DNA of 64,000 nucleotides from assembly GCA_029260215.1 (NCBI GenBank), contig JAJDDQ010000021.1, positions 62,001 to 126,000 of the forward strand, read 5' to 3'. Below the pieces are notes generated by a model, which was not told the DNA's origin, did no database searches, and saw only the letters and a program-made list of their open reading frames with translations. Below, in pieces: positions 36,116 to 52,851 of the stretch. The stretch is from Phycisphaerae bacterium (GTDB taxonomy: Bacteria > Planctomycetota > Phycisphaerae > UBA1845). Each line of letters begins with the position of its first letter. Position 1 is the first letter of the stretch. Position numbers and translations under genes: made by a program.

Positions 36116-36406
36116 CAGATTTCATCCGTCTTTGTTCGCGCACGAGCAAAAAAAAACGCGATCAATCCCGAGTTTCAACGAGCGGCAGTCACACGTGGAA
36201 TTACTTCGCAATCCCCGTCACGTGTAATATCGGACTCGTCACAGCCTTTCGTGAGTTGTGCTTGGCGATGATGTTGCAAATAGGTGTAAACACCCCCGGA
36301 GCCTGATACGCCAAACCGGTTGGCGGTCTGGCCGTTTGATGCGGATCGCCCGACCGCGATGCCGATAAATACCCGTTGCCCAAACCCGTCACCACGAGAG
36401 AAACCG

Positions 36407-37441
36407 ATGCGCGCGTTTGTCACCGGTGCAACCGGATTCCTGGGCCGCCGGCTGGTCGATCGCCTTCTAGCCGACGGCCACAACGTTACTGCCCTCGTTC
36501 GCAGCCACGAACACGGGCTGCCAAGCGCCGTGACAACCATTCCAGGCCAACTGCCCGACGACGCTGACGCACTCGATACCGGGCTAGCGCGCATTGACGT
36601 CATTTTTCATCTGGCCGCGTTCGTTTCGTTCGATCCCCACCAATCGGATCGCCTCCTGCACGTCAACGCAGAAGGCACGCGGGTTATTCTGAGTGCTGCC
36701 CGTGATGCCGGCGTCGCGAAAACCGTTGTTGTAAGCAGTGCCTGTACGATCGGTCTTGCGCGGCGGTCGAATAGCCTTCTTGATGAATCCACACCGACCA
36801 ACCCCACACTCCTACAGCGAAACCCCTACATGTGCAGTAAATGCGCAGCCGAGGCGTACGCGATCGAAGCCGCCGCAAAAGGGCTGAACGTAATCATCGT
36901 CAACCCCACAACGGTCTTCGGGCCGGGTGATCGATCCTTGAATTCCGGCACGCTCGTGAAACAGGTGGCTGAATCCGCCGTCGTGCCCGTGCCCGCGGGC
37001 GGGTCGAACGTCGTTAATATCGACGACGTGATCGAGGGCATACTGGCTGCCGCGTGCAAGGGTCAACCCGGCGCACGCTACATTCTCGGCGGTGAGAATC
37101 TGTATTTCAGCGAGATCTATCGTCAGATCGCCAACGTGGTCGGTCGCGCGCCGTTGTTTGTGTCCGTGCCTCGCTTCGCGAAACCCGCGATGACAGCACT
37201 GGCATGGGCGATTCAGCGAATCACCGGCAGCCGCCTAATCACGCCGCAAATCGTTGCCGATACATTCGCATTCAAGTTTTTTTCCAGCGCACGAGCCGAA
37301 CGCGAACTCGGATGGAAGGCTCGGCGCACATTCTCCGACACGCTGGCAGCGGCATGGGACTATTACCAACGCGAAGGACTGATCAAGACGCCGACCCGGA
37401 CGACCGCATGGTCTCCGGCGCCCCCACGGCGATCGACGTAA
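36407..37441 (+). CDS. NAD-dependent epimerase/reductase (HpnA/DFR-like)
   Basis: 344 residues from the ATG at 36407 (GAGAG 8 bases before it). Extended SDR with VTGATGFLGRRL, HLAAFVSF, SACTIGL, the catalytic YMCSK (YxxxK) and NPTTVFGPGD. Its layout resembles dihydroflavonol-reductase-like and hopanoid-associated sugar epimerase proteins. A methyltransferase gene overlaps its last 34 bp and a B12/radical SAM gene follows, so a lipid or sugar modification pathway is plausible. Substrate unknown. Confidence 0.8.
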   Translation: MRAFVTGATGFLGRRLVDRLLADGHNVTALVRSHEHGLPSAVTTIPGQLPDDADALDTGLARIDVIFHLAAFVSFDPHQSDRLLHVNAEGTRVILSAARDAGVAKTVVVSSACTIGLARRSNSLLDESTPTNPTLLQRNPYMCSKCAAEAYAIEAAAKGLNVIIVNPTTVFGPGDRSLNSGTLVKQVAESAVVPVPAGGSNVVNIDDVIEGILAAACKGQPGARYILGGENLYFSEIYRQIANVVGRAPLFVSVPRFAKPAMTALAWAIQRITGSRLITPQIVADTFAFKFFSSARAERELGWKARRTFSDTLAAAWDYYQREGLIKTPTRTTAWSPAPPRRST

Positions 37442-38193
37442 AACGCGCCAACCGCAAACTTTACGATGCTGTGGCTTCGGACTATGAAGCCATCGACGGG
37501 CGACGCGATCAATCGCTGTCCGCCTGGATTCGCCGACAGCTCCGCCAATTGGCCACCAAACACGGTGCCGGTCGTATTCTCGATCTTGGGGCCGGCTCCG
37601 GTTTGATTACGCGTCAGGCGCGGGGCATCTTCCGGGAAACCGTGGCGCTCGATCTTTCCCCGAGCATTCTCGCAGCGGCGAAGGATATCGCCCATCGCCG
37701 CATCGCCGCCGACACCGACGCGCTCCCGTTCGCCGATCAATCCTTCAACGTCGTGACCTGTTTCGCCGTTCTGCACCATCTTTACGACACGGCGGCGCTG
37801 GCTGACGAAGTGGCGCGCGTGCTCAAGCCGGGTGGGGCGTTCTGGTCGGATCACGACATGGACGCAGCCTTCCACAATCGTTTCCGCTGGCCTTTGACCG
37901 TCTACCGGCGCATGCGTGCAGCCGAGGCAAAGTACACAGCCGTCGACGGCATCGACGAAAAAACCTACGAATTGGCGGAATTTCGAGAAAACGGCGTCGA
38001 TTCCGACCGATTCGCGCGGCAGCTCCGCAACGCCCACCTGTCGCCGCAAGTAAATTTTCATTGGTTCGGTCTGACCGGATTGACCGATCGGTTGTTCCGC
38101 GATCGCCGTCACCGTCGGGGATGGGCACCGCTGCTGTCTGTTGTAGCCGTCAAACCCAGGACGGAACGTCGCATGTTTGGAAAGAAAGGTTGA
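37408..38193 (+). CDS. class I SAM-dependent methyltransferase
   Basis: 261 residues from the ATG at 37408. SAM site LDLGAGSGLITRQA, the acidic loop VALDLSPSIL, DALPFADQSFNVVTCFAVLHHL and EVARVLKPGG follow the UbiE/Coq5-like plan. The C-terminal 100 residues are Arg-rich and family-variable. It overlaps the epimerase gene by 34 bp and is 4 bp before the radical SAM gene, so the three are translationally coupled. Confidence 0.85.
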   Translation: MVSGAPTAIDVKRANRKLYDAVASDYEAIDGRRDQSLSAWIRRQLRQLATKHGAGRILDLGAGSGLITRQARGIFRETVALDLSPSILAAAKDIAHRRIAADTDALPFADQSFNVVTCFAVLHHLYDTAALADEVARVLKPGGAFWSDHDMDAAFHNRFRWPLTVYRRMRAAEAKYTAVDGIDEKTYELAEFRENGVDSDRFARQLRNAHLSPQVNFHWFGLTGLTDRLFRDRRHRRGWAPLLSVVAVKPRTERRMFGKKG

Positions 38194-38197
38194 ATTT

Positions 38198-39607
38198 ATG
38201 GCCAAAGTAGCCCTCATCTACCCGAGGCCGAACCGCATCACATTTGACACTGCGCATACCATCAACCTCGGTCTCGCATACTTGGCCGCCGTGCTTGAGA
38301 AACGGGGCCACACCGTCGTCATTCATGACTGCAATCTTCAGTCCGATAATCTCTTGCCTGACAAGCTCCGCGAGGTCGAGCTTGTTGGCTTCTACGCGAT
38401 CACCGCGGCGGTCAAGGCAGCCACCGCTCTTGCGGAACGTATCAAGAACGACATCAACCCCGATTGCAAGACCATTCTGGGCGGTCCGCACCCGACTTCG
38501 CGCCCTGAGGAGACCCTCGAATCACCCTACGTGGATTACGTCGCCATCGGCGAGGGCGAAAACCTGATCTGCGACCTGGCTGAGAACCTGAATAAACCCG
38601 AAGTGCGCGATCGTATCGCCGGCCTCGCGTTTCGCCGGTCCGACGGAACCGTCGTCACCAACGGTAAAGCCATCCCGCCGGGCGAGTTGGATGATCTCCC
38701 CTTTCCCGCGTACCACCTTTTCCCTGTTCAGCAGATAGGCCCGACACGCCCGACGTGGATCAACGCGAAGAATCTGGTTTGCGGGTCGATGATGACCACG
38801 CGGGGCTGTCCGTTCAAATGCACATTTTGCACCTCCGCCGCCGATCAACCGTTCGGCAAGGTATTTCGTGCGATGTCGCCCGAGCGCGTCATCGAGGAAA
38901 TCGAATGGTTGCAGAAAGTCTGGAACGTCAACTTCATTGAGTTTCAGGACGACGTTTTCAACCTGATTACTTCGCGAGCCGAGGACATCTGCCGCCTGAT
39001 TATCCGCAAGAAGCTCAATATTCGCTGGTCGATCCCCAACGGGATTTCCCGCGTGGAAAACATCGACGAGGATTTCCTGCGCTTGGCCCGCGATTCCGGT
39101 TGTGTCGATGCGTGGTTCGCAGCTGAATCCGGTTCCGAGCGTATTCGCAATGAGGTCATCAACAAGCAAAACACCATCGAGCAGGTGCGCCGCGCGATCG
39201 AAGCCTCCAGCCGCCTTGGCATCCAAACCGGTGCGTTTTTCATCTTCGGCAGCGCTGACGAGACCCTCGAAGAAATGCAGCAAACCATCGACTTCGCCAA
39301 GTCGCTCCCCCTCGATCGCGCCCAATTCACCATCGCCACACCGTTTCCGGGAACAGCCTTGTGGAATCGCGTCGATCGCGAAGGGCGTTGGCTGGAGAAG
39401 GATTACGACATGTTCGGCCCCTACGAGAACATTGTCTATTACGAGGTCGGTCGGCTGAAGGCTGAGAACGTGATGAAGATGTACAAGAAAGCGTTCCGCA
39501 GCTTCTTCCTTCGACCCTCGCACCTGTTGCGGAAGGTGGCGTTCCGCAAGGAAACGTACACCAACCTGCCACTGCTCATGCGCCAGGCTGTGCAGTTTAT
39601 GACCTAG
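38198..39607 (+). CDS. B12-binding radical SAM enzyme
   Basis: 469 residues from the ATG at 38198 (AAAGG 9 bases upstream). The N-terminal 150 residues form a cobalamin-binding-like Rossmann domain (GLAYLAAVLEKRGH, ILGGPHPTSRPEE, YVAIGEGE). The radical SAM core follows with the cluster motif C204-x3-C208-x2-C211 (GCPFKCTFC) and the later TIM-barrel strand EFQDDVFN. The DxHxxG cobalamin motif is not seen, so the B12 domain may bind no cobalamin. Similar enzymes (BchE, hopanoid and tetrapyrrole methylases or cyclases) add or rearrange carbons. It is the last gene of a three-gene unit. Confidence 0.85.
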   Translation: MAKVALIYPRPNRITFDTAHTINLGLAYLAAVLEKRGHTVVIHDCNLQSDNLLPDKLREVELVGFYAITAAVKAATALAERIKNDINPDCKTILGGPHPTSRPEETLESPYVDYVAIGEGENLICDLAENLNKPEVRDRIAGLAFRRSDGTVVTNGKAIPPGELDDLPFPAYHLFPVQQIGPTRPTWINAKNLVCGSMMTTRGCPFKCTFCTSAADQPFGKVFRAMSPERVIEEIEWLQKVWNVNFIEFQDDVFNLITSRAEDICRLIIRKKLNIRWSIPNGISRVENIDEDFLRLARDSGCVDAWFAAESGSERIRNEVINKQNTIEQVRRAIEASSRLGIQTGAFFIFGSADETLEEMQQTIDFAKSLPLDRAQFTIATPFPGTALWNRVDREGRWLEKDYDMFGPYENIVYYEVGRLKAENVMKMYKKAFRSFFLRPSHLLRKVAFRKETYTNLPLLMRQAVQFMT

Positions 39608-39865: not shown

Positions 39866-41581
39866 TTATCTTGAATACCGTTCGTCGCGGTGGTCCTCAC
39901 CGTGACACGTCAATGTACAACTGCCTGCGAATTGGCCCAGGTCGCGGAACTCGAGAAGCCCGGAATCCGGCTCAGGGCGTACCACGGACGTATCGAAGTT
40001 AATCAGATGCGTGTGATCCGAGCCTGACCCGACGGTGGCACTGATGCCGTGCGGCGCGTGGCAGGCGGAGCAGGGCGAATTCTCGTCCACAATATGCATT
40101 TTGTGTTCTTTGAAACTGTCGTCACTGAGAATGCTGCTGCGTTGGTGACATTTGTAACACATAGCATATCGTGCGGCAGACTCTGAAGCGGAGGCGGCTA
40201 TCACATAGTTGCGTTCGAGCAGGTAGGGATGGATCGATCCGTGCGGCCCGTCGGGGCCTGCACCGTTATTGCGCGGACCTGAGTCGTTGTTGTGGCAGTC
40301 CGTGCAACGAATGAGTGAACCGGGCGTCAATCCGAGTATGAGGCTTACAGTGTCGGAGCTTGTAACACTGGTCACGACCGGATGGAAACTGAAACTGTTC
40401 GGGCTGAACTTCAGCCTCAAATTGGAAGTCTGAGCAAGCCGTTGAACCGGATTTGAGATATGGACGGCTGTATCACCGTGACAGCGGAAACATATCTGGT
40501 ATTCGAACTGTGAATTATCAATGGACGTGCCTCCCGAAGTGACGCCGGGCGAACCCAGCAACGTCGGCCCGATGGGGACGTAGCCGGTGGTCTGCGTGAC
40601 GGGTTGGGCGGCGTGCGGATTGTGACAGTCGGTACACTCGACGTGCTCCTGCGACGGCGTGGGCGACTCGGCGGGGTCGTGAATGTCGAGGAATTCAGCC
40701 GGATCGTGCGCACGCAACTTCGCGATCTCCGATGAAATATCGGTTTGTGCGACAGTGCCATCGTGACATCGCAGGCAATTGTCCTCTTCCTGTCTGACAA
40801 TGAGCAGGCGTTCGGCACCGCCTGCGGCGTGAGGTCGGTGGCAGCTTCGGCAGGCGTTTTGTGCGACAGAATCGAATGGCCACTCGCCCGTGCCGGCGCC
40901 GGCGGTGGAAGCCGATGATGATTCGTGGCTGCTGCCGTCCCAGCCGTTCATTTGGTGACAGGCTGTGCAGAGTTGTCCGAACTCCTCTCCAAGAACGAGA
41001 AAGTCGCCGTTTGAATTGTCGTGTGGCGCGTGGCAGGATGTACACTGCATTTCACCGGTTGCATCGAGTCGGACCGCAGTCGGCAGCGTGCCGGGGTCAG
41101 TCAGTTGAAGATCGGAGGCGGCCAACGATGACGTGTAGGAGAAGCTGACGGGGTGATCGTTGGACAAGTCGGTGCCGAGGTTTGTCAGGCCGGCGGGAAT
41201 GAAATCACTTCCGATCATCGCGATTCGATCAGTCCTGCTAAGGACAAAGCCCAGTGCGATCGTGCCGTCATGACAGCTCAGACAGAGCTTGCTCGATCCG
41301 CTGGGTTGACCCGGCTGAGCGTCGAGTGTTGACGATGTGTAAATTGTATAACTGCCGACCGGGAGGTTTCGGTTCCAGAGTGGCTTTGATCCGGAAGTAT
41401 TGTGTGGCGCGTGGCAGAAGATGCAGACCTGTTGTTCGGTTTGAGCGCGGATTGCGCCGGGGCCTGTCGCGGACAGATTGTGTACAGTATCGGAAACGCG
41501 TTGTTGGGCGATGGTGGCGTCTACCAGACTGAACGGCAGCGATGCGGAAAAAAGGACGATGGTACCGGTGAGTCGGTTCAT
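39866..41581 (-). CDS. twelve-heme c-type cytochrome
   Basis: 571 residues with a signal peptide (TIVLFSASLPFSLVDATIAQ). Eleven CxxCH sites (CIFCH, CLSCH, CTSCH, CTACH, CRSCH, CLRCH, CTDCH, CFRCH, CTDCH, CYKCH, CSACH) and one CTLTCH (C-x3-CH) near the end give twelve possible covalent hemes. Sites come in close pairs with ...CHxPH, the doubled-CxxCH pattern. The first four resemble the tetraheme protein at 47618. It likely sits in the periplasm or on the cell surface and passes electrons along the chain. The ATG overlaps the NHL gene stop by 4 bp. Confidence 0.92.
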   Translation of the reverse strand: MNRLTGTIVLFSASLPFSLVDATIAQQRVSDTVHNLSATGPGAIRAQTEQQVCIFCHAPHNTSGSKPLWNRNLPVGSYTIYTSSTLDAQPGQPSGSSKLCLSCHDGTIALGFVLSRTDRIAMIGSDFIPAGLTNLGTDLSNDHPVSFSYTSSLAASDLQLTDPGTLPTAVRLDATGEMQCTSCHAPHDNSNGDFLVLGEEFGQLCTACHQMNGWDGSSHESSSASTAGAGTGEWPFDSVAQNACRSCHRPHAAGGAERLLIVRQEEDNCLRCHDGTVAQTDISSEIAKLRAHDPAEFLDIHDPAESPTPSQEHVECTDCHNPHAAQPVTQTTGYVPIGPTLLGSPGVTSGGTSIDNSQFEYQICFRCHGDTAVHISNPVQRLAQTSNLRLKFSPNSFSFHPVVTSVTSSDTVSLILGLTPGSLIRCTDCHNNDSGPRNNGAGPDGPHGSIHPYLLERNYVIAASASESAARYAMCYKCHQRSSILSDDSFKEHKMHIVDENSPCSACHAPHGISATVGSGSDHTHLINFDTSVVRPEPDSGLLEFRDLGQFAGSCTLTCHGEDHRDERYSR

Positions 41582-42753
41582 GGCGTCTGCTCTCGCGTTG
41601 GTTCCTGATTCGGGAATTTCGGATTGGATGATGATTCGCGAATTCGGGGTTTCGGTTTGATATAGTCGAAGACTTGAATGCGATTATTGTACGCATCGCA
41701 AACCCAGATTCGGTCGTTGGCGTCGATGTGAATACCGCCCGGCAACCAGAATTCACCCGGGCCGTTCCCCTCTTCACCCCAGAACAGAAGCAGGCGACCC
41801 GTGCGATCGAAGACCTGAACATTTTCGAAACGGGCATCGACGACATAAATGTGGCCGTCGCTGTCAATGGCGATGGCTTTGGGAAGCGCAAGATCGCCGG
41901 GCGCGTCACCGGCTTTTCCGATGACGATCGGTGCTTTGCCCTTCAGTGACACGCCCTGAACACGTCGATTTCCACTATCGACGATCCAGAGACGGTCGCG
42001 ATCGAGCAACAGGTCGGAGGGATAATTGAACGTGCCCGGTGCATCTCCGCGCCGGCCTATCACGCGAAGCGTTCTACCCTTTTCGTTGAGCACCTTGACG
42101 TTGTGAGCGCCAATGTCGAGCACGAACAATTCGGCAGTTTGCGGGTTCCAATCGAGTGCGACGGCGCGCAGAAGGTCCGATTCGGTTTGAACGGTTTCTA
42201 TGAGAGAACCGTCGTGCTCGTTTATCTTATAGATAGAATTGGCTTCCACGTCACAGAGATACAGTGTGCCCGGCGGGCCAACGGTGATGTCAATCGGGGC
42301 GAGCAGTTGTGCTTGTCCGATGCGGGTGATTTTTGTGGATCGCCTTTCGTTCAGGTCAAAAATATAGACACAGCGCCCGCCGGGATCGCATATCCACACA
42401 CGTTGACCGCCGCGGGTGCACACGATCGACCGAGGCCCGAAGAGTGCATCGGGTTTCTCAGGGCCTGCCACCAGATCACGAAACACGTCCCAGGCATTAC
42501 GACCGGGCTTGAGGTCGGCGGCGGTTCTTAGTTGGCCGACATATCGGATGCGCGGTTGCGCCGGGGCGGTCGGCCAAACGGGCGCGTTTGCGACGGTTTC
42601 AAACACCGGCTTGAGCGGCGTGCGGCAGCCGACCATACCGGGCCCGATCACGCAGGACAGGAATGTGAGCATGACGAACCGGAATAGCAGGATACGCCGT
42701 ATCGAAAGTCGATCGGTTGATTCTGTTCGCAACGTTGTCCCTCCACGTCTCAT
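41578..42753 (-). CDS. NHL-repeat lipoprotein of the cytochrome locus (A)
   Basis: 391 residues; ATG at 42753, though a TTG at 42732 has a better GGAGG 7 bases upstream. Lipobox-like GMVGC after a hydrophobic stretch. The mature part is a six-bladed NHL beta-propeller; blades read WICDPGGRCVYIF, YLCDVEANSIYKI, FVLDIGAHNVKVL, WIVDSGNRRVQGV, YVVDARFENVQVF, WVCDAYNNRIQVF. NHL propellers are binding platforms. It lies between the barrel gene and the 12-heme gene, overlapping the latter by 4 bp, so a structural role in the cytochrome complex is inferred. Confidence 0.88.
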   Translation of the reverse strand: MRRGGTTLRTESTDRLSIRRILLFRFVMLTFLSCVIGPGMVGCRTPLKPVFETVANAPVWPTAPAQPRIRYVGQLRTAADLKPGRNAWDVFRDLVAGPEKPDALFGPRSIVCTRGGQRVWICDPGGRCVYIFDLNERRSTKITRIGQAQLLAPIDITVGPPGTLYLCDVEANSIYKINEHDGSLIETVQTESDLLRAVALDWNPQTAELFVLDIGAHNVKVLNEKGRTLRVIGRRGDAPGTFNYPSDLLLDRDRLWIVDSGNRRVQGVSLKGKAPIVIGKAGDAPGDLALPKAIAIDSDGHIYVVDARFENVQVFDRTGRLLLFWGEEGNGPGEFWLPGGIHIDANDRIWVCDAYNNRIQVFDYIKPKPRIRESSSNPKFPNQEPTREQTP

Positions 42754-42811
42754 GCACAGGATTCCATGTTCAGTATCGTTCTGTCTTTAATTCGGTCTGC
42801 ATTTTGTCACG

Positions 42812-44884
42812 TCAGAATCGTCGCACGAGCTCTACAAGAATCGCCTGTGACTGGTCGTTTGCAAAAACGTTTTCGAACAAACTGTATTCGTAGGTGAGCT
42901 TAATCTTGGTTGTGCGAAAGGACCAATCAGCCGACAGATCGAAGTCGATGCCCTCATTGTCACCGCCGACGGTATCCTGTTCATTTCGGTATGCGACACC
43001 GGCTTCGATGTTGAATCTGCGTGTGATGGGATGGCGGTAGCGTCCGTCGATGGTCCAGAGTGTGACGTCGCGGGCTGCACGGTCACGAAATTGGATGTCG
43101 GACCACAGCGCGCTGATGCTGGCGGTGGCGGGGCCGATCTGTCGTGTGTATTCACCGCCGAAGCGAAGCGATTCGAACGGGCTGATCGTGGATTCGTGAT
43201 CCTCGATTTCGGCGAACAGGTGGAGTGTGCCTTTGCGGTACTCGCCGCCCAGAGTCTGAGCTGTGATGTTCTCGACGGTCACGCCGCTTGCGAGCAGGGG
43301 GCTTATCGTCTGGTTCTGGCGGTAGAACCGATAGTACAGATTGAGACCGAAATCGAATTCCTGCCGGATCCCGAAGCGCTGCTGGACCGTATCCAGATCA
43401 AAGTTCCCTGCGAGCGTAACCTGGTAGCTGACGAGGACGGTTTCGTCGTCGCGGATTCGGCCTGTGGGGACGCGTTCGATTTCGATGCGATTCCCGAAAT
43501 CCATAACCCGGTAGTCGCGTCCTCGGGCGTAGGTCTCGGTTCGGTCTTCGCGGATGATGGTTACGGTGCGCTGGTTGATGTTCGAATCGCTGATGATGAT
43601 CGGTTCCGGGTCGCGAAGGGTGTGTGACTCGTCGATGACCGCAATGACCTGGTCGCCGCCGGTGCGCTGCTGCCGCTCGAGTCGGACGCTGAAATCGCTG
43701 CGCAGCACGCCCCAGGGGTTCTTCTTTTGATAGTCGAAAAAGGCTCCGACCGTTTGTCGCTCGATCTCAAGCCCCGAGCCGAATTCCTGTCGCTGGGCTC
43801 GTCCGGAAGAGCGTGAGACGAGGCTGTCGTAAAGACGGTGTTCGAGGTCGCTGGAAATCAAGTAGGAGCGTTCCTGAACCGGCTTGGCACCGAACAAATC
43901 GCCTTGCGTGCGGTCGATGAATTCGAACACAAATGACGATCGCAGCCGGTCGGTGTGCTTCATACGCAGCGTTTCGCGCCAGTCGATCCGCTCGATGTCG
44001 AACGTGCCTCGCTGCCTGTAGCCACGCAGTGTGCTTTCGAAGCGGTGCTGCTTGTCGACGCCGAAATCGATTCGGTGACTGAGATTGGCTCTGTCGGTGT
44101 CGTATTGAATTGTGATGGGCGTTTCTTCGAGTTGTTCGCGGCTGACCCTCAAAGACAGAATGTTGTGTTCGCTGAAGTGATAGCCGGTCTCGAATCGTGC
44201 GACCGAGTTCCGACGGCTGCCGGGGCGTTCGCCGGCTCTGAGAAACGGGTTGAAATCGACGTTGGTGCGGCTGAGCTGAAATAGCGTCGGGGTTTTGGGA
44301 TCGACGTACTGCCAAGTGAAATCGAAGCTGCTGGTTTGGGTTTCCAGGCTGCCGCGAAACGGGCGCGGATCAAACGTACGCGAACGGACTCCGTGCAGCG
44401 TGATGGGGAAATCCTTGTTCTTGAACAGCGATGCCCGCACATCAAACTCCTCCAGCGTATCGTTCTGGGCGCTGTTCTGAATCATACCTCCGCGGTCCTG
44501 GTGAAATTCACTCTGCTGAAGTCCAGCCACCATCGCCAGCGAAAAATCGAGCAGATTCGGATGGTAGACGTAACCGTCCGCCTTGAGGCGAAGTCGCTGT
44601 TGAAAGATGGACTCGTCGTATTCTTCGTCACCGGTGGCCAGTTTGGAGTCGCGTTGGTTGCTTCGCTGCCGCGCCGTGATTTCGAGCTCGGTTCGGATGT
44701 TGTGCAGGGCGATCGGTTTAATCGCGTTCGTTTGAGCGGGCGGCGTGCGGCAACCCGTCGGGCTTATGATCAATGTTGCGATCGTCATCACAATGGCGAC
44801 AGAGCGCGTGACGGAGCGCGACGGCGAGGCGGGGCCGGTCGAATTCTGAGTGCAGCCGCAGTTCGTCGAAGGGTCAGGGTTCAC
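42812..44884 (-). CDS. predicted outer-membrane beta-barrel of the cytochrome locus
   Basis: 690 residues from a GTG overlapping the preceding stop. N-terminal hydrophobic segment with Cys (LIISPTGC). The rest has the amphipathic alternating pattern of a large beta-barrel: many short strands such as YRFYRQNQTI, LHLFAEIEDHEST, AGVAYRNEQ, and the final strand ends LVELVRRF with a terminal Phe, the usual outer-membrane assembly signal. There is no TonB box or plug. Size and context fit porin-type barrels that sheathe multiheme cytochromes in Pcc/MtrB-like conduits, although sequence similarity to MtrB is not claimed. No N-terminal CxxC of the MtrB type was seen. Confidence 0.72.
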   Translation of the reverse strand: MNPDPSTNCGCTQNSTGPASPSRSVTRSVAIVMTIATLIISPTGCRTPPAQTNAIKPIALHNIRTELEITARQRSNQRDSKLATGDEEYDESIFQQRLRLKADGYVYHPNLLDFSLAMVAGLQQSEFHQDRGGMIQNSAQNDTLEEFDVRASLFKNKDFPITLHGVRSRTFDPRPFRGSLETQTSSFDFTWQYVDPKTPTLFQLSRTNVDFNPFLRAGERPGSRRNSVARFETGYHFSEHNILSLRVSREQLEETPITIQYDTDRANLSHRIDFGVDKQHRFESTLRGYRQRGTFDIERIDWRETLRMKHTDRLRSSFVFEFIDRTQGDLFGAKPVQERSYLISSDLEHRLYDSLVSRSSGRAQRQEFGSGLEIERQTVGAFFDYQKKNPWGVLRSDFSVRLERQQRTGGDQVIAVIDESHTLRDPEPIIISDSNINQRTVTIIREDRTETYARGRDYRVMDFGNRIEIERVPTGRIRDDETVLVSYQVTLAGNFDLDTVQQRFGIRQEFDFGLNLYYRFYRQNQTISPLLASGVTVENITAQTLGGEYRKGTLHLFAEIEDHESTISPFESLRFGGEYTRQIGPATASISALWSDIQFRDRAARDVTLWTIDGRYRHPITRRFNIEAGVAYRNEQDTVGGDNEGIDFDLSADWSFRTTKIKLTYEYSLFENVFANDQSQAILVELVRRF

Positions 44885-45480
44885 CGGTCCATTCGTTTCA
44901 AGAAATACCGGTCAGTACCGGCATGGGGATCATGACACTGAATGCAGCGTCGTTCATCGAGTTCGGCGTGGCGCGGGCCTGCGGTCAGATCCGTTTGATC
45001 GTGGCAGCGCAGGCAGGTCTCGTCCGGCGGGTAAAGCAACAGGCCGGGAATCTTGCTCTCGTGGTAGTGGTGACAAAACAGGCAATCGCGTGCAGCCACA
45101 GGCCCGTGAACGAACGGAGCGTCGCCGGGGATGTTGACGTGACAGCGGGCGCATAACCCTTCCTGAGTCGTGGCCACGAGTTCCACACCGGCGGGTTGAT
45201 GGCAACGGCGACATTGAAATTCCTTGTAGGGCGGGTGGCTGATGAGTTTTTCAGCTACGACGATCGGGTGGAGTGAATCCGGAACGTCCAAATCGGCTTC
45301 GGTTTTCGCCTGTACAATTTCCTGGTCGTCTTTGGAATCGGGAGCAGCCTCCCCCGGTTTCGGCACGCCGTCGAAGAAGAACCCGAGTACGCGAAAACGC
45401 GCGGTTTCGTTACAGGCTACGGTCAGACCGGCTATCGTGACGGCGGTAACACTGAACACAAACAGGTGTCTTGCCGCCAA
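44881..45480 (-). CDS. pentaheme c-type cytochrome lipoprotein
   Basis: 199 residues from a TTG at 45480; AAGGA lies 7 bases before it and no ATG/GTG in the right place gives a signal peptide. The N terminus is a signal peptide ending in LTVAC. Five heme sites follow: CRRCH, CARCH, CLFCH, CLRCH, CIQCH, in about 120 residues, dense like nanowire-type cytochromes. The N-terminal Cys suggests lipid anchoring. The stop overlaps the barrel start by 4 bp, so barrel and cytochrome are translationally coupled. Confidence 0.85.
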   Translation of the reverse strand: MAARHLFVFSVTAVTIAGLTVACNETARFRVLGFFFDGVPKPGEAAPDSKDDQEIVQAKTEADLDVPDSLHPIVVAEKLISHPPYKEFQCRRCHQPAGVELVATTQEGLCARCHVNIPGDAPFVHGPVAARDCLFCHHYHESKIPGLLLYPPDETCLRCHDQTDLTAGPRHAELDERRCIQCHDPHAGTDRYFLKRMDR

Positions 45481-45535
45481 GGTTTGTTCCTTTTCTTTTG
45501 CCGCCGCTTCCTTGTCTCCCCGGTTGCCAACATTG

Positions 45536-46813
45536 TTACATGCCGTCGGGCGAGGCTGCCGGCGTCTTACCAGCCGGTTGCTTGTCGTCTGTCCGCCGCG
45601 GTTCGGGTGGCGACGGCTCCTCCGCCGGTCCGATGCCAGCACCCTCCGGCACGTCGGGAATCGCGGCGATCTCGTTTTCCGCCACGGTGAACCCTTCGGG
45701 GAACTGGCCGAACGCATACACGTTGACCAAGTGCGGGCCATACTGGTTCACGACCAAAATCAAATAATCGATATCGAACGAACGATGAGCCAAGTCCTTA
45801 AAATACGGGATCAGCGATCGATCCACGGCCAGTGACGAGGGAAGATCGAGCGCGCCCGGTGTTCTGCCAGGCCCACCGAAGTGCATGAGCGGATCGCCGT
45901 TGGAATCGTACATTTGAACGATCTCGGTAGCTCCGTCGACGACATACACAATGCCGTCCAACCCCACACGAATACCCCGCGGGCGACCGAATTGCCCCAC
46001 CTGATAACCGGGCTGACCCGCCGTCCAGACAGGCTCCCCCTCGCGCGTGAGTTTTTGTACCCGCCAATTCATGGTATCGCTGACGTAAAGGAAGCCCTCG
46101 GGACCGATGCACAAACTGCTGGGCAGCCGAAACTGCCCCGGCTCCGAACCGGGTGATCCGAACGAACGCAACACCTCTCCGGTGCGGCGGTCGAGCACGA
46201 CGATCTGGCAGGTCTTATCGTTGTCCAGGACGTAAAGCTCGTTCTCAAAGACAGCCACATCGACAGGCCGAGCCGGCTCGGGAAGATCGAAGGCGGTGGC
46301 GTACTGATCGTCCGGGCTGAATACGACAATTTGTTTTCGAATCGTGTCGGCCACAAACTTGTACCCGAGCGGATCGATCGCGATGTTCACCGGTTTGCGC
46401 AGTCGACCCGGGCCACGGATGCCGAAAAGCGAATAGGTTTTGTTCTTGAAATCCATCCGTGCGATAGACAGGCCTTTTGAATCGCAAACAAACGCAGCGC
46501 CGTCGTGGACCGCCAATCCGTAAGGCTTGTTCAGAACGCGCAGGCCACGCTCCTCATCGCCGAGCACGAAACGCTCGAGCGCGCCAGCTCCCTCTTCCAC
46601 CTCGGCCGCTCCGTTGGCCCAGGTCAAGAACTGAACGCGAGGTTTTTCCGGAGGCGGTGGAAACAGCAGCAATGCCCGTTTTTCAGCCGCCGGAGTCTGG
46701 CATCCCGAGAGCGTCGTTAGCGCAGCGAGCGCGAGCAGTCCACAAACGGCGTGTGGCAAGCAGTGCATGCGACTGATGACTTTGGCGGCTGTCTTGATCG
46801 GACGGGTTTGCAC
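45536..46813 (-). CDS. NHL-repeat lipoprotein of the cytochrome locus (B)
   Basis: 425 residues from a GTG at 46813 with AAGGAG 8 bases upstream; the longer frame to 46954 lacks one. Lipobox TLSGC. NHL propeller blades read FVCDSKGLSIARM, FVADTIRKQIVVF, YVLDNDKTCQIVVL, YVSDTMNWRVQKL, YVVDGATEIVQMY. The C-terminal 50 residues are Pro/Ala/Glu-rich and lack structure. It is a paralogue in plan of NHL lipoprotein A, but not a close copy. It lies between the tetraheme and pentaheme genes. Confidence 0.88.
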   Translation of the reverse strand: MQTRPIKTAAKVISRMHCLPHAVCGLLALAALTTLSGCQTPAAEKRALLLFPPPPEKPRVQFLTWANGAAEVEEGAGALERFVLGDEERGLRVLNKPYGLAVHDGAAFVCDSKGLSIARMDFKNKTYSLFGIRGPGRLRKPVNIAIDPLGYKFVADTIRKQIVVFSPDDQYATAFDLPEPARPVDVAVFENELYVLDNDKTCQIVVLDRRTGEVLRSFGSPGSEPGQFRLPSSLCIGPEGFLYVSDTMNWRVQKLTREGEPVWTAGQPGYQVGQFGRPRGIRVGLDGIVYVVDGATEIVQMYDSNGDPLMHFGGPGRTPGALDLPSSLAVDRSLIPYFKDLAHRSFDIDYLILVVNQYGPHLVNVYAFGQFPEGFTVAENEIAAIPDVPEGAGIGPAEEPSPPEPRRTDDKQPAGKTPAASPDGM

Positions 46814-46980
46814 GTTGCGTTCTCCTTGGGTGGCACAAACACTAACCCGCTTCGGTGCGGTACCGCAACGGTCGGCTGGAAGGATTTTCGGAATGACCTC
46901 CTGTCTGATTGTCCCGTCTCTCCGGGTCCGGACAAAAGGCAAAGTGGGATTCACCCCAAGGTCGCTCCGGATTGCGCGAC

Positions 46981-47018
46981 AGCGTGCCCCGTTTCGCGGA
47001 TGCGACGCGGGGCACGCT
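46981..47018 (-). other. strong hairpin between cytochrome operon genes
   Basis: AGCGTGCCCCG (46981-46991) pairs perfectly with CGGGGCACGCT (47008-47018); pairing extends inward with one mismatch to a GGAT loop. It starts 13 bases after the tetraheme stop on the minus strand. No T run follows on either strand, so it is more likely an mRNA stabilising or partial-termination element than a strict terminator. Confidence 0.7.
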
Positions 47019-47030
47019 TTCAGGCTGCGA

Positions 47031-47618
47031 TCACTTCTGGTGACACGTCAAGCACAGCGCGCTTGCGCTGTTCGAGATTCGCAGAAACTCGCCGTTGGTG
47101 TTGTTGTGCGGATTATGGCAAGAGCCGCACTCAACCCGATCGGTTTCGGCGCCCACATCGAACAGGAACAGGCCCGCAGCCTCGACGCTGGCCGCGGAGT
47201 TGTAGTCTCCGCTCGTGGGATAGGGCAATCCGATCGGGTGGTCGTCTCTCAGATCGGTCCCAAGGACTGCGTCGCCCGACATCGTGGTCGAACCGGTTTG
47301 CCCGCCGTAACTGTCCAGCGCGGTCACGCCGTCGTGGCAACTCAGGCACAGCTTGCTAGGCCCGTCAGGATCGCCGGTGCGCCCGGTCAGCGTCGTATAC
47401 ATCGTAAACGTCTGCGTGGTCAGCGCATGGTTCCAAAGCGGAGCGCTGTCCACCGAGGTGTCGGCCTTATGCGGCGTGTGGCAGGGCAGGCAAATGTTGT
47501 TCAGCCCCGGCACCTCGTTTCTCAGGTCATGGTCCGTGTTCGTGATTCCTGTCTGCGCCCATGCGCCGGTCGCCGCCAAACACAGCGCCATGGGTGCTAT
47601 CCATCGTTTCGAAAACAT
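47031..47618 (-). CDS. tetraheme c-type cytochrome
   Basis: 195 residues from the ATG at 47618 with AAGGAG 8 bases upstream. Signal peptide FSKRWIAPMALCLAATGAWAQ (one residue short of the whole). Four heme sites: CLPCH, CLSCH, CGSCH, CLTCH. Order and spacing match the first four sites of the 12-heme protein (…PLWN…SKLCLSCHDG…LGTDL..DHP…CHNPH.N.NG). It is the first gene of the operon that ends at 39866 and has a sigma-54 promoter 116 bp upstream. Confidence 0.9.
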   Translation of the reverse strand: MFSKRWIAPMALCLAATGAWAQTGITNTDHDLRNEVPGLNNICLPCHTPHKADTSVDSAPLWNHALTTQTFTMYTTLTGRTGDPDGPSKLCLSCHDGVTALDSYGGQTGSTTMSGDAVLGTDLRDDHPIGLPYPTSGDYNSAASVEAAGLFLFDVGAETDRVECGSCHNPHNNTNGEFLRISNSASALCLTCHQK

Positions 47619-47733
47619 CGTGGGTCTCCTTGTCCTTGTCGCAAAGCCAAACGCGAAATCGTCCAGCTGCCACGCGGGGATGAGGTGAAACCGAGTCGCA
47701 CGCCACAACCCCGCAACATCACGACGTGCAGTA

Positions 47734-47749
47734 AGCAATTACCATGCCA
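47734..47749 (-). promoter_or_regulatory. near-consensus sigma-54 promoter
   Basis: On the minus strand the sequence reads TGGCATG-N4-TTGCT, the -24/-12 consensus (TGGCACG-N4-TTGCW) with one base different and the correct GG-N10-GC spacing. It lies 116 bp before the tetraheme start. An inverted repeat lies about 87 bp upstream, and an NtrC-family activator is encoded 2 kb away. Confidence 0.8.
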
Positions 47750-47835
47750 CACTGAACCGGTGTTACGGAAGACGCGTTCAGACCGACCCCAAAGGGGCGT
47801 AATCGCGACCGATCGCACGGTAACAGGCCATAGCG

Positions 47836-47855
47836 GCAGGTCGCAGGGCACCTGC
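47836..47855. promoter_or_regulatory. possible activator binding site (inverted repeat)
   Basis: GCAGGT (47836-47841) and ACCTGC (47850-47855) form an inverted repeat with an 8-bp spacer, about 87-106 bp upstream of the sigma-54 promoter. Position and form suit an enhancer for an NtrC-family regulator. The rest of the 47619-47968 gap shows no gene. The call is inference. Confidence 0.45.
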
Positions 47856-47968
47856 GTGGCAACGAACTCTCCTGCCTGCGAATCGGTCAGAAAGCCAATC
47901 GCGACGTATTGCTTCCCACTGGTAGGAACACCTTTCTCGGAGCCGGAAAACGATGGAACCCAACGTGG

Positions 47969-49330
47969 CTAGGGTTCGACAATGGCGTTGGGCGTTTTGC
48001 GCTTGGGATTGACCGGCGTCAGACGGTCGTACCGTCGCGATTGATGGCAACCGGGCCCACAGGATCCGCCCGTTTGCGTAGCCTCGAAGTTCAGCGGAAT
48101 GCGCCACTGACCAAAAGCCACTGAATCGGTCACCTGATGCGTGTTGCTGTTGGCGTGCGGGTCGTGACAGAATCGGCACGTCCGCCCCTTGGCCCCGGAG
48201 TTCACATGCAGGAAGTGAAGATTCCGCTGTCCGTCGCGAAAGCCGGTCGCGTCGGTCGTCTCGGCGTCCTCAAAGGCCTCGACATCGTGGCATTCAAAGC
48301 AAAGCGCATAGATATCGTCATTGAAAGCGGCGTATCGCTTCGCCGGGTAGGCGGCGGTCAGGAGCGACACGTACGCGCCGCCGTGCGGCTGGTGGCATGT
48401 AACGCAGTCGTTGTCAGCCACCGGTCCATGTCGCATGGGATGCGCGGCGAGTCGCCCTGCAATGTCGGCGATGATCCCGCGTTTTGAATTGATCGTCCGG
48501 TTGTGACACGATAGACACAACTGAGCACCGTCACCGAGAAGCAGAGTATCTCGGTCGGACGCATGGGGACTGTGGCAGGCCAGGCAGGCACGCCCCACGG
48601 TGACCAATGCGTGCGGTACGGCTGCATCATCGATAGCGTCAGCCACATCATCGTGGCAGTCGAGGCACAGGTCGGGCAAGGTGGCCGTCAGGAGCATCTT
48701 GTCGTCACCGCCGTGCGGCTGATGACACCCGAGACAGTCTTCGCGCGCAGGCTGGTGGACGGTTTTCAGGCTTTCAAGGTTCTCGAAGATTTCGTCGTGG
48801 CATTGGGCGCACAGCTTCGGCCCCGTCTCGACGAGCAGCTTGGAGAGATCGCTGGCGTGTGGATTGTGGCAACTCGTGCAAGCGCCAGCCGCCACGGGAC
48901 CGTGGTGGAACTCGAAATCTTCGGCTACTTCCTCATGACACTGGGAGCAATTTTCACCTGTCGTAGCTTCCCGAAGCAATTTTGGATAGGGCGATCCGTG
49001 TGGGTTGTGGCAAATCGTACACCCGTTTTGTTCGATGGCTGCGTGTAGAAATTCGCCTTCGACGGACTCCTCGTGGCAGTCCATGCAAAGTTCTTTCGGA
49101 TCGGCGGTGAGGTCGAATCGGTGGACTTTAGCGTCCGGCTGCACATGGCAGACATCGCATTGATTTTCCCCGGCTGGGGCATGCACAAATTTCGTCTGGA
49201 CAAGTTTCCCGTGACACCCCGAACTTGTGCAGTCGTCGCCGAAGTCTCTGACTTGCTGGGCGACGCTCACTGGAGAGAGCACCATCGCGCCCAACAATAA
49301 TGCAATCATTCGTGTCAATTCAAGATCCAT
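47969..49330 (-). CDS. fifteen-heme c-type cytochrome
   Basis: 453 residues with signal peptide (MIALLLGAMVLSPVSVAQ). Thirteen CxxCH sites (CDVCH, CMDCH, CTICH, CSQCH, CTSCH, CAQCH, CLGCH, CLDCH, CLACH, CLSCH, CVTCH, CFECH, CRFCH), one CGPGCH (C-x3-CH) and one CTSSGCH (C-x4-CH) give up to fifteen hemes. CxxCHxPH(G/A) pairs repeat about every 45 residues, a doubled-CxxCH array with histidines between for axial ligation. It ends in a basic tail. A start at 49309 is also possible. The activator gene is upstream across a 265-bp repeat-rich gap. Confidence 0.92.
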   Translation of the reverse strand: MDLELTRMIALLLGAMVLSPVSVAQQVRDFGDDCTSSGCHGKLVQTKFVHAPAGENQCDVCHVQPDAKVHRFDLTADPKELCMDCHEESVEGEFLHAAIEQNGCTICHNPHGSPYPKLLREATTGENCSQCHEEVAEDFEFHHGPVAAGACTSCHNPHASDLSKLLVETGPKLCAQCHDEIFENLESLKTVHQPAREDCLGCHQPHGGDDKMLLTATLPDLCLDCHDDVADAIDDAAVPHALVTVGRACLACHSPHASDRDTLLLGDGAQLCLSCHNRTINSKRGIIADIAGRLAAHPMRHGPVADNDCVTCHQPHGGAYVSLLTAAYPAKRYAAFNDDIYALCFECHDVEAFEDAETTDATGFRDGQRNLHFLHVNSGAKGRTCRFCHDPHANSNTHQVTDSVAFGQWRIPLNFEATQTGGSCGPGCHQSRRYDRLTPVNPKRKTPNAIVEP

Positions 49331-49595: not shown

Positions 49596-50951
49596 TTACT
49601 CCTTTTCAATAGCCAACTCTTCCATCTTCCGGTAAAGACTCGACAGGCCGATGCCCAGCATCTGGGCGGCATCGGCTTTGTTGCCGTTGCACTGTTCCAG
49701 CGTGCTGAGAATGTGCCGCCGCTCGAACCCGCGCATCGACGCACGAAGGTCGGTTCCCGGGGCGTCCATCGAGGCTGAACCCGCCACAGCAAACAACACC
49801 TGATCGAGATCAACAGGAACGCCGTCAGCGAAAATCAATGCCCGTTCGACTACGTTTTCCAATTCGCGCACGTTGCCCCGCCAGTTTTGCCTCGCCAGAA
49901 CTGCCACCGCTTCGGGCGAGAATCCCGGGCAATCGTGGTTAAGCGTCCGGTTGTATTTTTCAACAAAATGCTCAATCAAAACCGGTACATCCTCGGGGCG
50001 ATCACGCAACGGTGGCATCAGGATATTGATGACGTTAAGCCTGAAAAAAAGATCCTCGCGAAATTCACCCGCTTTGATCGACGCGTTGAGATCACGATTT
50101 GTGGCTGCGATGACCCGAATGTCCACCGGCTTGGGGCGATGGTCGCCGACCGGTGTGATGGTCCGGCCTTCGATCGATCGCAACACGGTGGCCTGAGCAC
50201 GAAGCGGCATGTTGCCGATCTCGTCCAGAAACAGGGTGCCCCCATCAGCCGCTTCAAAATAGCCCACCCGATCCTTGTGCGCGCCGGTGAACGCACCTCG
50301 TCGATAGCCGAACAACTCGCTCTCAACCAGCGATCCAGACAATCCACCGCAATTCACCGGAATAAACGGTTTTTCACTTCCCAATCCCCGATCGTGAATC
50401 GCCCGGGCGATGACTTCTTTGCCGGTACCGCTCTCACCGCAGATCAACACGTTGGCGTTGGTCCGCGCTACTTTGTCTATCGTCAGCATCACCTCGTTCA
50501 TTGCTGGTGACGGGCCGACGATCATCGTATTCGGTTGTCTTTCGCGAATCTGTTCGCGTAGTTGCTTGTTCTCCTTGACCAGCTCGTCCTGCACGAACAG
50601 CCTATTCAGCCGAAGGATCACCTCATCGAAAATAATCGGCTTGCACATGTAGTCCTTCGCCCCGCGTTTCATGGCTTCGACGGCGGTTTCCACCTCACCA
50701 AATGCGGTTATGACGATGATGCCCGCCTCCGGTGCCAGGTCCGCGGCACGGGCGATCAGGTCCATTCCGGTCAATCCGGGCATGCGCAAATCGGTAATGA
50801 TGGCACCCACGGAGTGCGATTTCATCGCTCGAAGCGCTTCGTTGCCGTCACGACATGCAAGAACCTCGAAGCCCTCTTCTTTGAGAACAAGGGCCAGGTT
50901 CTCGCGAAGCGTGTCCTCGTCGTCAGCCAGTAGGACGGTATGTGGGCTCAT
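49596..50951 (-). CDS. NtrC-family sigma-54 activator response regulator
   Basis: 451 residues. Receiver domain with phospho-acceptor D54 (IITDLRMPG). AAA+ domain with Walker A GESGTGKE (172-179), the sigma-54-contacting GAFTGA loop (219-224), Walker B GGTLFLDEI and sensor RVIAATN. Fis-type HTH at the end (NKADAAQMLGIGLSSLYRK). It should activate sigma-54 promoters when phosphorylated, probably by the kinase at 52684. Cytochrome genes on both sides and a sigma-54 promoter at 47734 suggest its targets. AGAGG precedes the ATG. Confidence 0.95.
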   Translation of the reverse strand: MSPHTVLLADDEDTLRENLALVLKEEGFEVLACRDGNEALRAMKSHSVGAIITDLRMPGLTGMDLIARAADLAPEAGIIVITAFGEVETAVEAMKRGAKDYMCKPIIFDEVILRLNRLFVQDELVKENKQLREQIRERQPNTMIVGPSPAMNEVMLTIDKVARTNANVLICGESGTGKEVIARAIHDRGLGSEKPFIPVNCGGLSGSLVESELFGYRRGAFTGAHKDRVGYFEAADGGTLFLDEIGNMPLRAQATVLRSIEGRTITPVGDHRPKPVDIRVIAATNRDLNASIKAGEFREDLFFRLNVINILMPPLRDRPEDVPVLIEHFVEKYNRTLNHDCPGFSPEAVAVLARQNWRGNVRELENVVERALIFADGVPVDLDQVLFAVAGSASMDAPGTDLRASMRGFERRHILSTLEQCNGNKADAAQMLGIGLSSLYRKMEELAIEKE

Positions 50952-51262: not shown

Positions 51263-52684
51263 CTATGGCAGGGAGACCATAACTGTAGCGCCTCGACCCA
51301 CCCGGCTGGCGATGCGAATTTCGCCGCCATGTTGCTTGACGACCTGATGCGAAATCCACAATCCAAGACCCGTGCCCTTGCCAGGCTCCTTGCTGGTGAC
51401 AAACGGTTCGAACGCGCTGGCTCGTTGCTGCTCGGTCATGCCCGGCCCGTCGTCGGCAAACAGGATGACAGCGTTCCCATGCTCGGTTTGCGTGGAGATG
51501 CGTAGAGTCCCCTTGCCTCCGTTTTCCCCAATGGCGTCGACGGCGTTGATGACCACGTTGAGAAACACGAGCAAAATCCGGTCGGGATCGCCCCACACCG
51601 GTCCCGCGCCGGTCACGGATTCGCAGGAAATCTCGACATCCCGCGTGCGACGATCGTAGCCCACCAGCGTGAGCGTACGCTGGATTACCGCGTCGATATC
51701 GACCGCCTCGCGGATACGCTGATCGCTCGGACGAGAGAAGGTCAGCAGGTCACGAATAATCTTCGATATGCGTCGGGTCTCAGCCAAAATCAGGTTGAGC
51801 TGTTCGTTCCGTGTCTCGTCCTGGCACCCGCGCTGCATGACCTGGGCGACCGCAGAAATGCTGGCGAGCGGATTGCCGACCTCGTGGGCGACACCGGCCG
51901 CGAGTGTGCCGATGGCCGCCATCTTCTCGGCTTGGATCATATTATTGCGGGTGTCTTTCAACTCACCGTAGGCACGATCGAACGCGTCAGCCAACTGGCG
52001 AAACTCCTCGTCCGCATCCGGCGACAGACGCGTCCCGCCGGATTCACCGGACCGCGCTCGGGAAATGCCCGCAAGCAGGGACTCGACTGGCTTGGTAATC
52101 CTGTTCTTCAAGTGAAAAGCCACAATCCCCCCGCAGATCAAAGCCGAAATCATGGTCGCACAAAGAACCCGCCAAGCCCGCGACACGTCGGCGGTCATGT
52201 CCTCGCTGCGCAAAGCCAAATGACGTAGTGCTCGGTCAGACAGCCCAAGAGAGCGGGAATTGAGCTCCTCAACAACTGAGAGCGCGATTTGTTCAAGTTC
52301 GGGCTTTCGATCGGTGGCCGCGATGTCGAGCGCCTGAAGCGAATCACGATACCGATCAAACGTCTGACGCTGCTCGTCGAGAAAGGCCTGAACGCGCGGT
52401 TCGTGATGGCAACTGCCGCACGCGGTCAACGAGTCGTTGAAACGCTCCACATGATCGTAAACCGTCTTGCTCGACACGGGACGGTCCGCCAATCGGGCAA
52501 TCAAATCCGCCCGAAGCCTCACGCCGTCGGAGACGAGGGAGGTTCGAAGCGTCTGGATACGGTGAAATTCAACCAGATTGCGAAGCTGCGTCACGCTTCG
52601 GAAAAGAGAAAACACGGCGATCGCGTCGCCCACCACGCAGAGCATCAGCAGGATGGCCAAACAAATGACGATTCGTTTTTTCAT
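51263..52684 (-). CDS. membrane histidine kinase with c-heme sensor motif
   Basis: 473 residues from the ATG at 52684 (AGGTGGG upstream; the ATG at 52705 is less likely). TM1 at about 5-28 and TM2 at about 172-192 frame a periplasmic domain of about 145 residues. This contains CGSCHH (C89-x2-C92-H93), a c-type heme attachment motif, in a helical bundle-like setting. A HAMP region, HisKA (phospho-acceptor H267 in VAHEVGNPL), and HATPase_c (NVVINAVDAIGENG; FADDGPGM; GTGLGL) follow. It likely senses redox state or a small ligand through heme and phosphorylates the adjacent NtrC-type regulator. The heme must be attached by ResB/CcsA encoded divergently. Confidence 0.9.
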   Translation of the reverse strand: MKKRIVICLAILLMLCVVGDAIAVFSLFRSVTQLRNLVEFHRIQTLRTSLVSDGVRLRADLIARLADRPVSSKTVYDHVERFNDSLTACGSCHHEPRVQAFLDEQRQTFDRYRDSLQALDIAATDRKPELEQIALSVVEELNSRSLGLSDRALRHLALRSEDMTADVSRAWRVLCATMISALICGGIVAFHLKNRITKPVESLLAGISRARSGESGGTRLSPDADEEFRQLADAFDRAYGELKDTRNNMIQAEKMAAIGTLAAGVAHEVGNPLASISAVAQVMQRGCQDETRNEQLNLILAETRRISKIIRDLLTFSRPSDQRIREAVDIDAVIQRTLTLVGYDRRTRDVEISCESVTGAGPVWGDPDRILLVFLNVVINAVDAIGENGGKGTLRISTQTEHGNAVILFADDGPGMTEQQRASAFEPFVTSKEPGKGTGLGLWISHQVVKQHGGEIRIASRVGRGATVMVSLP

Positions 52685-52708
52685 TTCCCACCTGCGGGAA
52701 CCCAATCC

Positions 52709-52756: not shown

Positions 52757-52851
52757 AATATTCAGGAAACTGCTAACACGGCGCGTGCCTGTAAAAATTG
52801 CGAACGGAGGGTGTCACGGTGAATCGTCCAGTCGATCAAGGAGCCACGCCC

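Follow-up and report, generated by a model that had tools for sequence, protein, structure and literature searches.

We describe a cytochrome gene cluster on the minus strand of a 64-kb stretch of DNA from a Phycisphaerae bacterium (contig JAJDDQ010000021.1); the whole stretch is called the window, and all coordinates refer to it. The cluster very probably encodes an electron conduit across the outer membrane. It unites a predicted conduit barrel, putative haem wires, a tetrahaem cytochrome resembling the OmcE nanowire subunit and a presumed surface cytochrome with an OmcE-like domain in one conserved block that looks like a transcription unit and was found in at least 12 phyla. On balance we favour the further reading that the conduit passes electrons to an OmcE-type filament, or receives them from it, and that the contact is made by the last of these proteins, called the 11/12-haem protein here. 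The seven genes for cytochromes, barrel and NHL proteins are, in the order of transcription:

47969..49330, minus strand: cytochrome with 13+2 haem motifs, a unit of its own; DmsE/MtrA-like and periplasmic-wire-like
47031..47618, minus strand: tetrahaem cytochrome resembling OmcE, with signal peptide, ending 2 residues past its fourth CXXCH; similar to UetA of the Uet (undecaheme electron transfer) conduit; matches to PDB 7tfs and 9yuq
45536..46768, minus strand: NHL beta-propeller lipoprotein 1 (NHL1), by Pfam NHL; the longest open reading frame extends to 46954
44881..45480, minus strand: pentahaem lipoprotein with 5 CXXCH; match to MtrA
42812..44884, minus strand: large predicted outer-membrane beta-barrel of 690 residues, by AlphaFold2 model and Foldseek
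41578..42753, minus strand: NHL beta-propeller lipoprotein 2 (NHL2), lipobox ...GMVGC, by Pfam NHL
39866..41581, minus strand: cytochrome with 11 CXXCH and 1 CX3CH by motif count, UetJ-like; OmcE-like N-terminal domain and C-terminal haem domain

All seven reading frames were found where the original prediction had placed them, as a six-gene operon (39866-47618) and a separate gene for a 15-haem protein (47969-49330), the two being at least 230 bp apart. The pentahaem and barrel genes overlap by 4 bp, as do the genes of NHL2 and the 11/12-haem protein. The barrel gene is separated from NHL2 by 58 bp and NHL1 from the pentahaem gene by 55 bp, if the latter starts at TTG 45480, which agrees with the earlier count of four junctions that overlap or lie within 60 bp. 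The gap between the tetrahaem gene and NHL1 is wider and measures 76-262 bp, depending on the start codon. The true starts likely differ from those of the longest reading frames and are ATG 47618 for the tetrahaem gene, ATG 46768 for NHL1, which is followed by a lipoprotein signal (...LSGC), and TTG 45480 for the pentahaem gene.

Together, the seven genes contain 33 CXXCH and three CX3-4CH motifs, so the predicted total of 36 haem sites is reached when the non-canonical motifs are counted and falls to 33 with CXXCH only. The same holds for the proteins predicted to carry 12 and 15 haems, which have 11 and 13 canonical motifs, respectively. In the terminal cytochrome the twelfth site is a CX3CH (C555-TLT-CH), and the count of 12 therefore depends on this motif. 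The separate cytochrome has one CX4CH and one CX3CH in addition to its 13 CXXCH, and the tetrahaem and pentahaem proteins have four and five CXXCH. With 11 CXXCH in one protein and a gene order that recurs across phyla, the locus is not a product of chance.

The tetrahaem protein had been recorded simply as a tetraheme cytochrome. The four haem motifs are there, but its relation to a nanowire subunit had been overlooked. Over its full mature length it matched the OmcE nanowire of Geobacter sulfurreducens (PDB 7tfs, E=8e-23) and also 9yuq (E=9e-24), a second OmcE-like cytochrome with 16 copies in its entry. When 60 sequences were compared, including OmcE and the N-terminal domain of the 11/12-haem protein, the four CXXCH and the N-terminal, HP and third-haem His were invariant and the remaining distal His was conserved to 92%. 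The C-terminal end is equally fixed, since 56 of the 57 tetrahaem homologues stop exactly 2 residues past the fourth haem motif, as OmcE does. The pairwise identity among the tetrahaem protein, OmcE and the N-terminal domain was 38-39%. By these features the tetrahaem protein resembles an OmcE-type nanowire subunit and may polymerise in the same way.

The terminal cytochrome likewise has an OmcE-like domain that had escaped notice. Its residues 19-210 matched 7tfs (E=3.5e-32) and its residues 11-212 the family profile (E=3.8e-45). With the AlphaFold model as query, OmcE was the sole significant match in the PDB (7tfs, Foldseek E=1.8e-7, template modelling (TM) score 0.66 on OmcE). The protein thus consists of an OmcE-like tetrahaem domain (residues ~20-212) fused to a C-terminal domain that contains seven CXXCH motifs and a single CX3CH. 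Among 46 homologues from many phyla, all 12 haem motifs, including the CX3CH, and the N-terminal His34 were invariant, and at least 13 non-motif His were invariant or nearly so. A doubled-CXXCH domain (Paired_CXXCH) was found with Pfam, and no match was obtained to TIGR03507, the family of MtrC/OmcA-type surface cytochromes.

The conservation of the locus was followed by scanning GTDB genomes with an alignment of the 11/12-haem protein. This yielded at least 559 relatives, and the best 80 were used for the locus counts. They belong to Planctomycetota, Pseudomonadota, Bacteroidota, Verrucomicrobiota, Nitrospirota, Thermodesulfobacteriota, Myxococcota, Calditrichota, Ignavibacteriota, Nitrospinota and Zixibacteria as well as to lineages that bear no phylum label, KSB1 and Hydrogenedentes among them, at least 12 phyla in all, and the terminal cytochrome is ~45-50% identical across phyla. 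NHL2, barrel, NHL1 and tetrahaem genes were all present in 45 of the 50 loci that have at least 7 kb upstream, and the recurring order is tetrahaem, NHL, (pentahaem), barrel, NHL and 11/12-haem. In ~150 relatives of this genome, which are not independent lineages, barrel and 11/12-haem protein occurred together in 92, the barrel alone in 3 and the 11/12-haem protein alone in 1. Among 294 planctomycete genomes, an OmcE-type match (E<=1e-10) was observed in no genome that lacked an 11/12-haem match. The genes are accordingly co-conserved, as the original prediction needed them to be. Judged from gene content, the core is five genes (tetrahaem, NHL1, barrel, NHL2 and 11/12-haem), and the pentahaem and 15-haem genes are common additions, the latter being present in 36 of the 80 loci. 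The tree of the 11/12-haem protein largely tracks the phyla, with 15 label changes compared to 38 in shuffles, and the system therefore looks old and mostly inherited.

This genome has a second, diverged copy of the cluster (G000:C27:7047-14852, L061) with the genes in a different order (pentahaem, barrel, NHL2, 11/12-haem, tetrahaem and NHL1) and without a 15-haem gene. Its 11/12-haem protein is 45% identical, and the two copies sit in different planctomycete clades of the tree. In four loci of Proteobacteria/Gammaproteobacteria (L112, L120, L143 and L149), a trihaem gene, an NHL gene and one or two giant cytochromes of 16-24 haems were seen beyond the five-gene core. In three of them this further module, possibly a second conduit, is preceded by 8- and 7-haem genes. 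One contig titled as a cyanobacterium (Leptolyngbya sp. PLA1, L154) carries a cluster nested among those of Planctomycetota; this record is probably mislabelled or mis-binned.

The barrel sequence gave no useful match in Pfam, NCBIfam or the PDB sequences. A 'phage tail tube' match in the library was under its own cut-off and was discarded. With a 54-sequence alignment, AlphaFold2 returned a model with a mean predicted local distance difference test (pLDDT) score of 89.8. It has ~28 long antiparallel strands, as counted from the DSSP string, which extend from residue 56 to the C-terminal Phe690, and an immunoglobulin-like insert at ~412-491; a plug domain is lacking. The C-terminus (...VRRF) ends in Phe as noted before, and the homologues mostly finish with an aromatic residue. 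The best Foldseek match in the PDB was MtrB of the Mtr complex (6r2q_B, E=7.7e-9), aligned over the whole chain. The similarity to MtrB amounts to a TM score of 0.43-0.46 and a VIA Z of 16.0 over 449 residues, a Z that TonB-dependent receptors reach as well, and is not accompanied by a sequence match. The alignments of the TonB-dependent receptors run mostly from residue 195 onward. Such receptors normally have a plug. From the model, the barrel is predicted to be a large, empty, plug-less pore, so wide that something would have to occupy it. The pore on which the original prediction relied was hence returned with confidence. That every member of the complex is a lipoprotein was considered and rejected, since only 9 of 72 barrels have an N-terminal lipobox by a strict heuristic and the feature is not general.

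Two candidates for a haem wire were found. The pentahaem lipoprotein has an MtrA-like haem spacing of 20, 23, 23 and 23 residues and a weak match to MtrA (6r2q_A, E=2.6e-5). Behind its lipid-modified Cys follows a conserved C-x(n)-FFFDGVP, and FFFDGVP was found in 32 of 49 homologues with a strict pattern. The haem number of this protein type varies by lineage from 5 to 7, 8, 9 and 10 and reaches 18-19 in Verrucomicrobia, while the lipoprotein N-terminus is kept. Such variation on a fixed N-terminus is as expected for an anchored wire whose length is tuned, and we propose that the pentahaem protein would act as a wire in or under the barrel. The Verrucomicrobial proteins (L127 5073-6752 with 19 haems, L150 5233-6789 with 18) consist of near-identical two-haem-unit repeats. 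They were considered as fusions of the 15-haem and pentahaem proteins, but this was rejected, as they are pentahaem-type lipoproteins expanded by repeats. The 15-haem protein matched MtrA more strongly (E=9e-14). It scored 154 bits with TIGR03508 (DmsE/MtrA family), which is under the cut-off of 192, compared to 34-48 bits for the other cytochromes. Its most plausible role is that of a periplasmic wire. The PDB library lists chain A of 6r2q as 'Cystathionine beta-synthase', a name that does not fit an entry of the Mtr complex and is apparently mistaken. Taken together, the predicted empty pore with MtrB as its best Foldseek match, the matches of both haem proteins to MtrA and the co-conserved gene set support well the trans-outer-membrane conduit that had been proposed.

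Both NHL proteins were recognised by Pfam (NHL1 E=1e-12, NHL2 E=1e-17) and matched propellers in the PDB, NHL1 those of NHL/TRIM proteins and NHL2 NHL propellers with E down to 8e-50. NHL2 directly precedes the 11/12-haem gene in homologous loci, most often with a 4-bp overlap. The two lipoproteins are probably holders or assembly factors.

From the gene content, the homologies, the barrel prediction and the co-conservation, we infer the following order of assembly, electron flow, polymerisation and regulation. The periplasmic 15-haem wire would give electrons to, or take them from, the pentahaem lipoprotein, which would sit in or under the large barrel and be sealed by it. Outside, the 11/12-haem protein would use its C-terminal 7(+1)-haem domain for docking to the barrel and present its N-terminal OmcE-like domain as the first unit for polymerising tetrahaem subunits. 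The two NHL lipoproteins would hold or assemble the surface parts, and a sensor kinase with a c-haem motif together with a sigma-54 regulator would probably switch the operon on. The operon would then supply what looks like the full set of an 'electric socket and cable' that moves electrons through the outer membrane.

The pairing of an OmcE-type subunit with a surface cytochrome that has an OmcE domain suggests a nanowire base. In OmcE and OmcS, a His from the adjacent subunit serves as ligand of an interfacial haem (PMC12954529; PMC9473688). In the 11/12-haem protein the covalent C-terminal domain may replace the next filament subunit and leave His34 free for the first tetrahaem unit, so that the protein would be the base of the filament. 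We tentatively propose, with somewhat less than even confidence, that it is a dedicated nanowire base in which the OmcE-like domain is the first subunit, His34 could ligate the haem of the first tetrahaem protein and the C-terminal domain plugs into the conduit. In that case the five-gene core would serve generally to anchor nanowires and to connect them electrically, as a machine that is ancient in at least 12 phyla. A 2025 review lists it as unknown how cytochrome nanowires are anchored in the membrane and where electrons enter them, and states that no direct biochemical evidence ties porin-cytochrome complexes to nanowire formation (PMC12307469). The 11/12-haem protein is a named candidate for the missing anchor, and the question can be tested in cultured carriers.

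Several points weigh against a filament-coupled conduit. Homology to OmcE is no proof that the tetrahaem protein polymerises, and what cytochrome filaments do physiologically is itself disputed (PMC11077965). The model of the 11/12-haem protein is moderate (pLDDT 71) and was built without haems, and we infer the surface location of this protein. Most Pseudomonadota loci have neither the pentahaem nor the 15-haem gene, which requires a different wire in them unless the barrel serves another purpose. A plain Uet-type porin-cytochrome conduit would manage without a filament: the tetrahaem and 11/12-haem proteins would be monomeric surface reductases or oxidases, and the OmcE-like domain just a shared haem module. 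Uet is described in this way in PMC10734462, with UetA as an 'extracellular tetraheme' and UetJ as an undecaheme protein, and a gene duplication could account for the 38-39% identity of the domains. The tetrahaem homologues, however, keep the OmcE set of His and the fixed C-terminus with a strictness that a plain surface reductase would not need, and we regard this explanation as unlikely. Even less probable is a secretion or assembly platform, in which the barrel and the NHL lipoproteins would export or assemble the filament while electrons enter elsewhere. It has been speculated that porin-cytochrome complexes take part in the secretion of cytochromes (PMC12307469), and the five-gene core does stay together in the Pseudomonadota loci without a pentahaem gene; but in most loci outside Pseudomonadota an MtrA-like haem wire gene stands directly before the barrel gene, and the best fold match of the barrel is MtrB.

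The direction of the electron flow is a separate question, and uptake from Fe(II) or another extracellular donor by a reversed complex is compatible with the filament-coupled conduit. Uet is described in cathode-oxidising Tenderiales (PMC10734462), and with the three COX1 homologues of this genome oxygen could serve as terminal acceptor. No RuBisCO large subunit was found in the 97%-complete genome, which leaves electroautotrophy by the Calvin cycle unsupported and other uses of uptake possible. With three COX1 homologues, one match to the NapC/NirT family and no RuBisCO large subunit, export under oxygen limitation is at least as likely, and we consider uptake a reasonable possibility that we would not put first.

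Regulatory features were found upstream of the operon and of the 15-haem gene:

47735..47749, minus strand: sigma-54-type (-24/-12) promoter-like site TGGCATGGTAATTGC, ~115 bp before the tetrahaem ATG
49596..50951, minus strand: NtrC-type sigma-54-dependent response regulator, by Pfam
51263..52705, minus strand: membrane histidine kinase with one CXXCH (CGSCH, residue 96) in the predicted periplasmic sensor, by motif and Pfam

The site is the sole exact match to TGGCAYRN4TTGC in the window. With up to one mismatch allowed, 13 of 53 homologous loci have a sigma-54-type site ahead of the tetrahaem gene, compared to 0.05 expected from mononucleotide shuffles; such sites precede the barrel in 0 of 63 cases and the 11/12-haem gene in 1 of 78. 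A similar sigma-54-dependent regulator was present in 21 of the 80 loci, in 16 of them together with the kinase, and homologous kinases in seven other loci likewise have a CXXCH; these motifs suggest a redox sensor with c-haem. The NtrC-type regulator is likely the activator of the operon. These observations support, but do not prove, that the transcription unit starts at the tetrahaem gene and is switched by a possibly haem-bearing sensor. Genes for cytochrome c assembly of the ResB and CcsA types adjoin the locus on the plus strand (52798-56618). On the other side, next to the operon, NAD-epimerase, methyltransferase and B12-binding radical SAM genes were seen in overlapping order (36320-39607).

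Compared to known systems, the tetrahaem protein is a full-length homologue of OmcE (7tfs) in which the haems, the His residues and the C-terminal end all occupy corresponding positions, but it is 38% identical and its gene is joined here with those of a barrel and an OmcE-domain cytochrome. With MtrCAB and MtoAB the locus shares a large barrel with MtrB as best fold match, one or more MtrA-like wires and a putative surface multihaem cytochrome. It differs in that the barrel has no detectable sequence similarity, an MtrC-type surface protein is absent from the locus, the wires have 5 and 15 haems instead of 10, and NHL lipoproteins are added. Multihaem cytochromes beside NHL proteins are also encoded by Desulfovibrio ferrophilus (DFE_0448-0451 and 0461-0465), but without an apparent porin-cytochrome conduit in those clusters (PMC9769857). 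In Geoalkalibacter ferrihydriticus, locus 02426-02431 encodes a homologue of OmcE together with multihaem cytochromes and two proteins of the NHL type; it has an MtoA-like cytochrome, and mtoB and mtoD are missing (PMC12016550). Within the PVC group, porin and multihaem genes of Verrucomicrobia have been proposed to serve extracellular electron transfer; these clusters, likened here by their description only, have an octahaem periplasmic cytochrome instead (PMC5615132). Undecahaem conduits in Dechloromonas occultata and porin-cytochrome complexes in Planctomycetota and KSB1 have also been noted (as cited in PMC13264449).

The closest system is Uet, reported for Candidatus (Ca.) Tenderia electrophaga and Gallionella (Eddie 2022, as cited in PMC10734462). 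PMC10734462 lists a tetrahaem UetA, an isomerase UetB, a barrel UetC, trihaems UetDEG, NHL proteins UetHI and an undecahaem UetJ. The paired NHL proteins, correctly placed outside the standard Mtr/Pcc sets by the original prediction, are therefore already part of a published conduit, and their presence in one is no novelty. What appears to be new is that Uet-like operons encode an OmcE-type subunit together with a surface cytochrome that carries an OmcE domain; no earlier report of this was found in the searched literature, an absence that does not prove novelty. The locus shares with Uet the tetrahaem protein, the beta-barrel, the two NHL proteins and a doubled-CXXCH cytochrome with 11-12 motifs. 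Trihaem proteins like UetDEG are absent, as it has only 4-, 5-, 11/12- and 13/15-haem proteins, and no peptidyl-prolyl isomerase domain (UetB) was found with Pfam and NCBIfam in any protein of the cluster. With four Uet features present and two absent, in a comparison by parts and haem counts and not by Tenderia sequences, we file the locus as a Uet-like variant, not as Uet, to which a pentahaem lipoprotein and a 15-haem candidate wire have been added.

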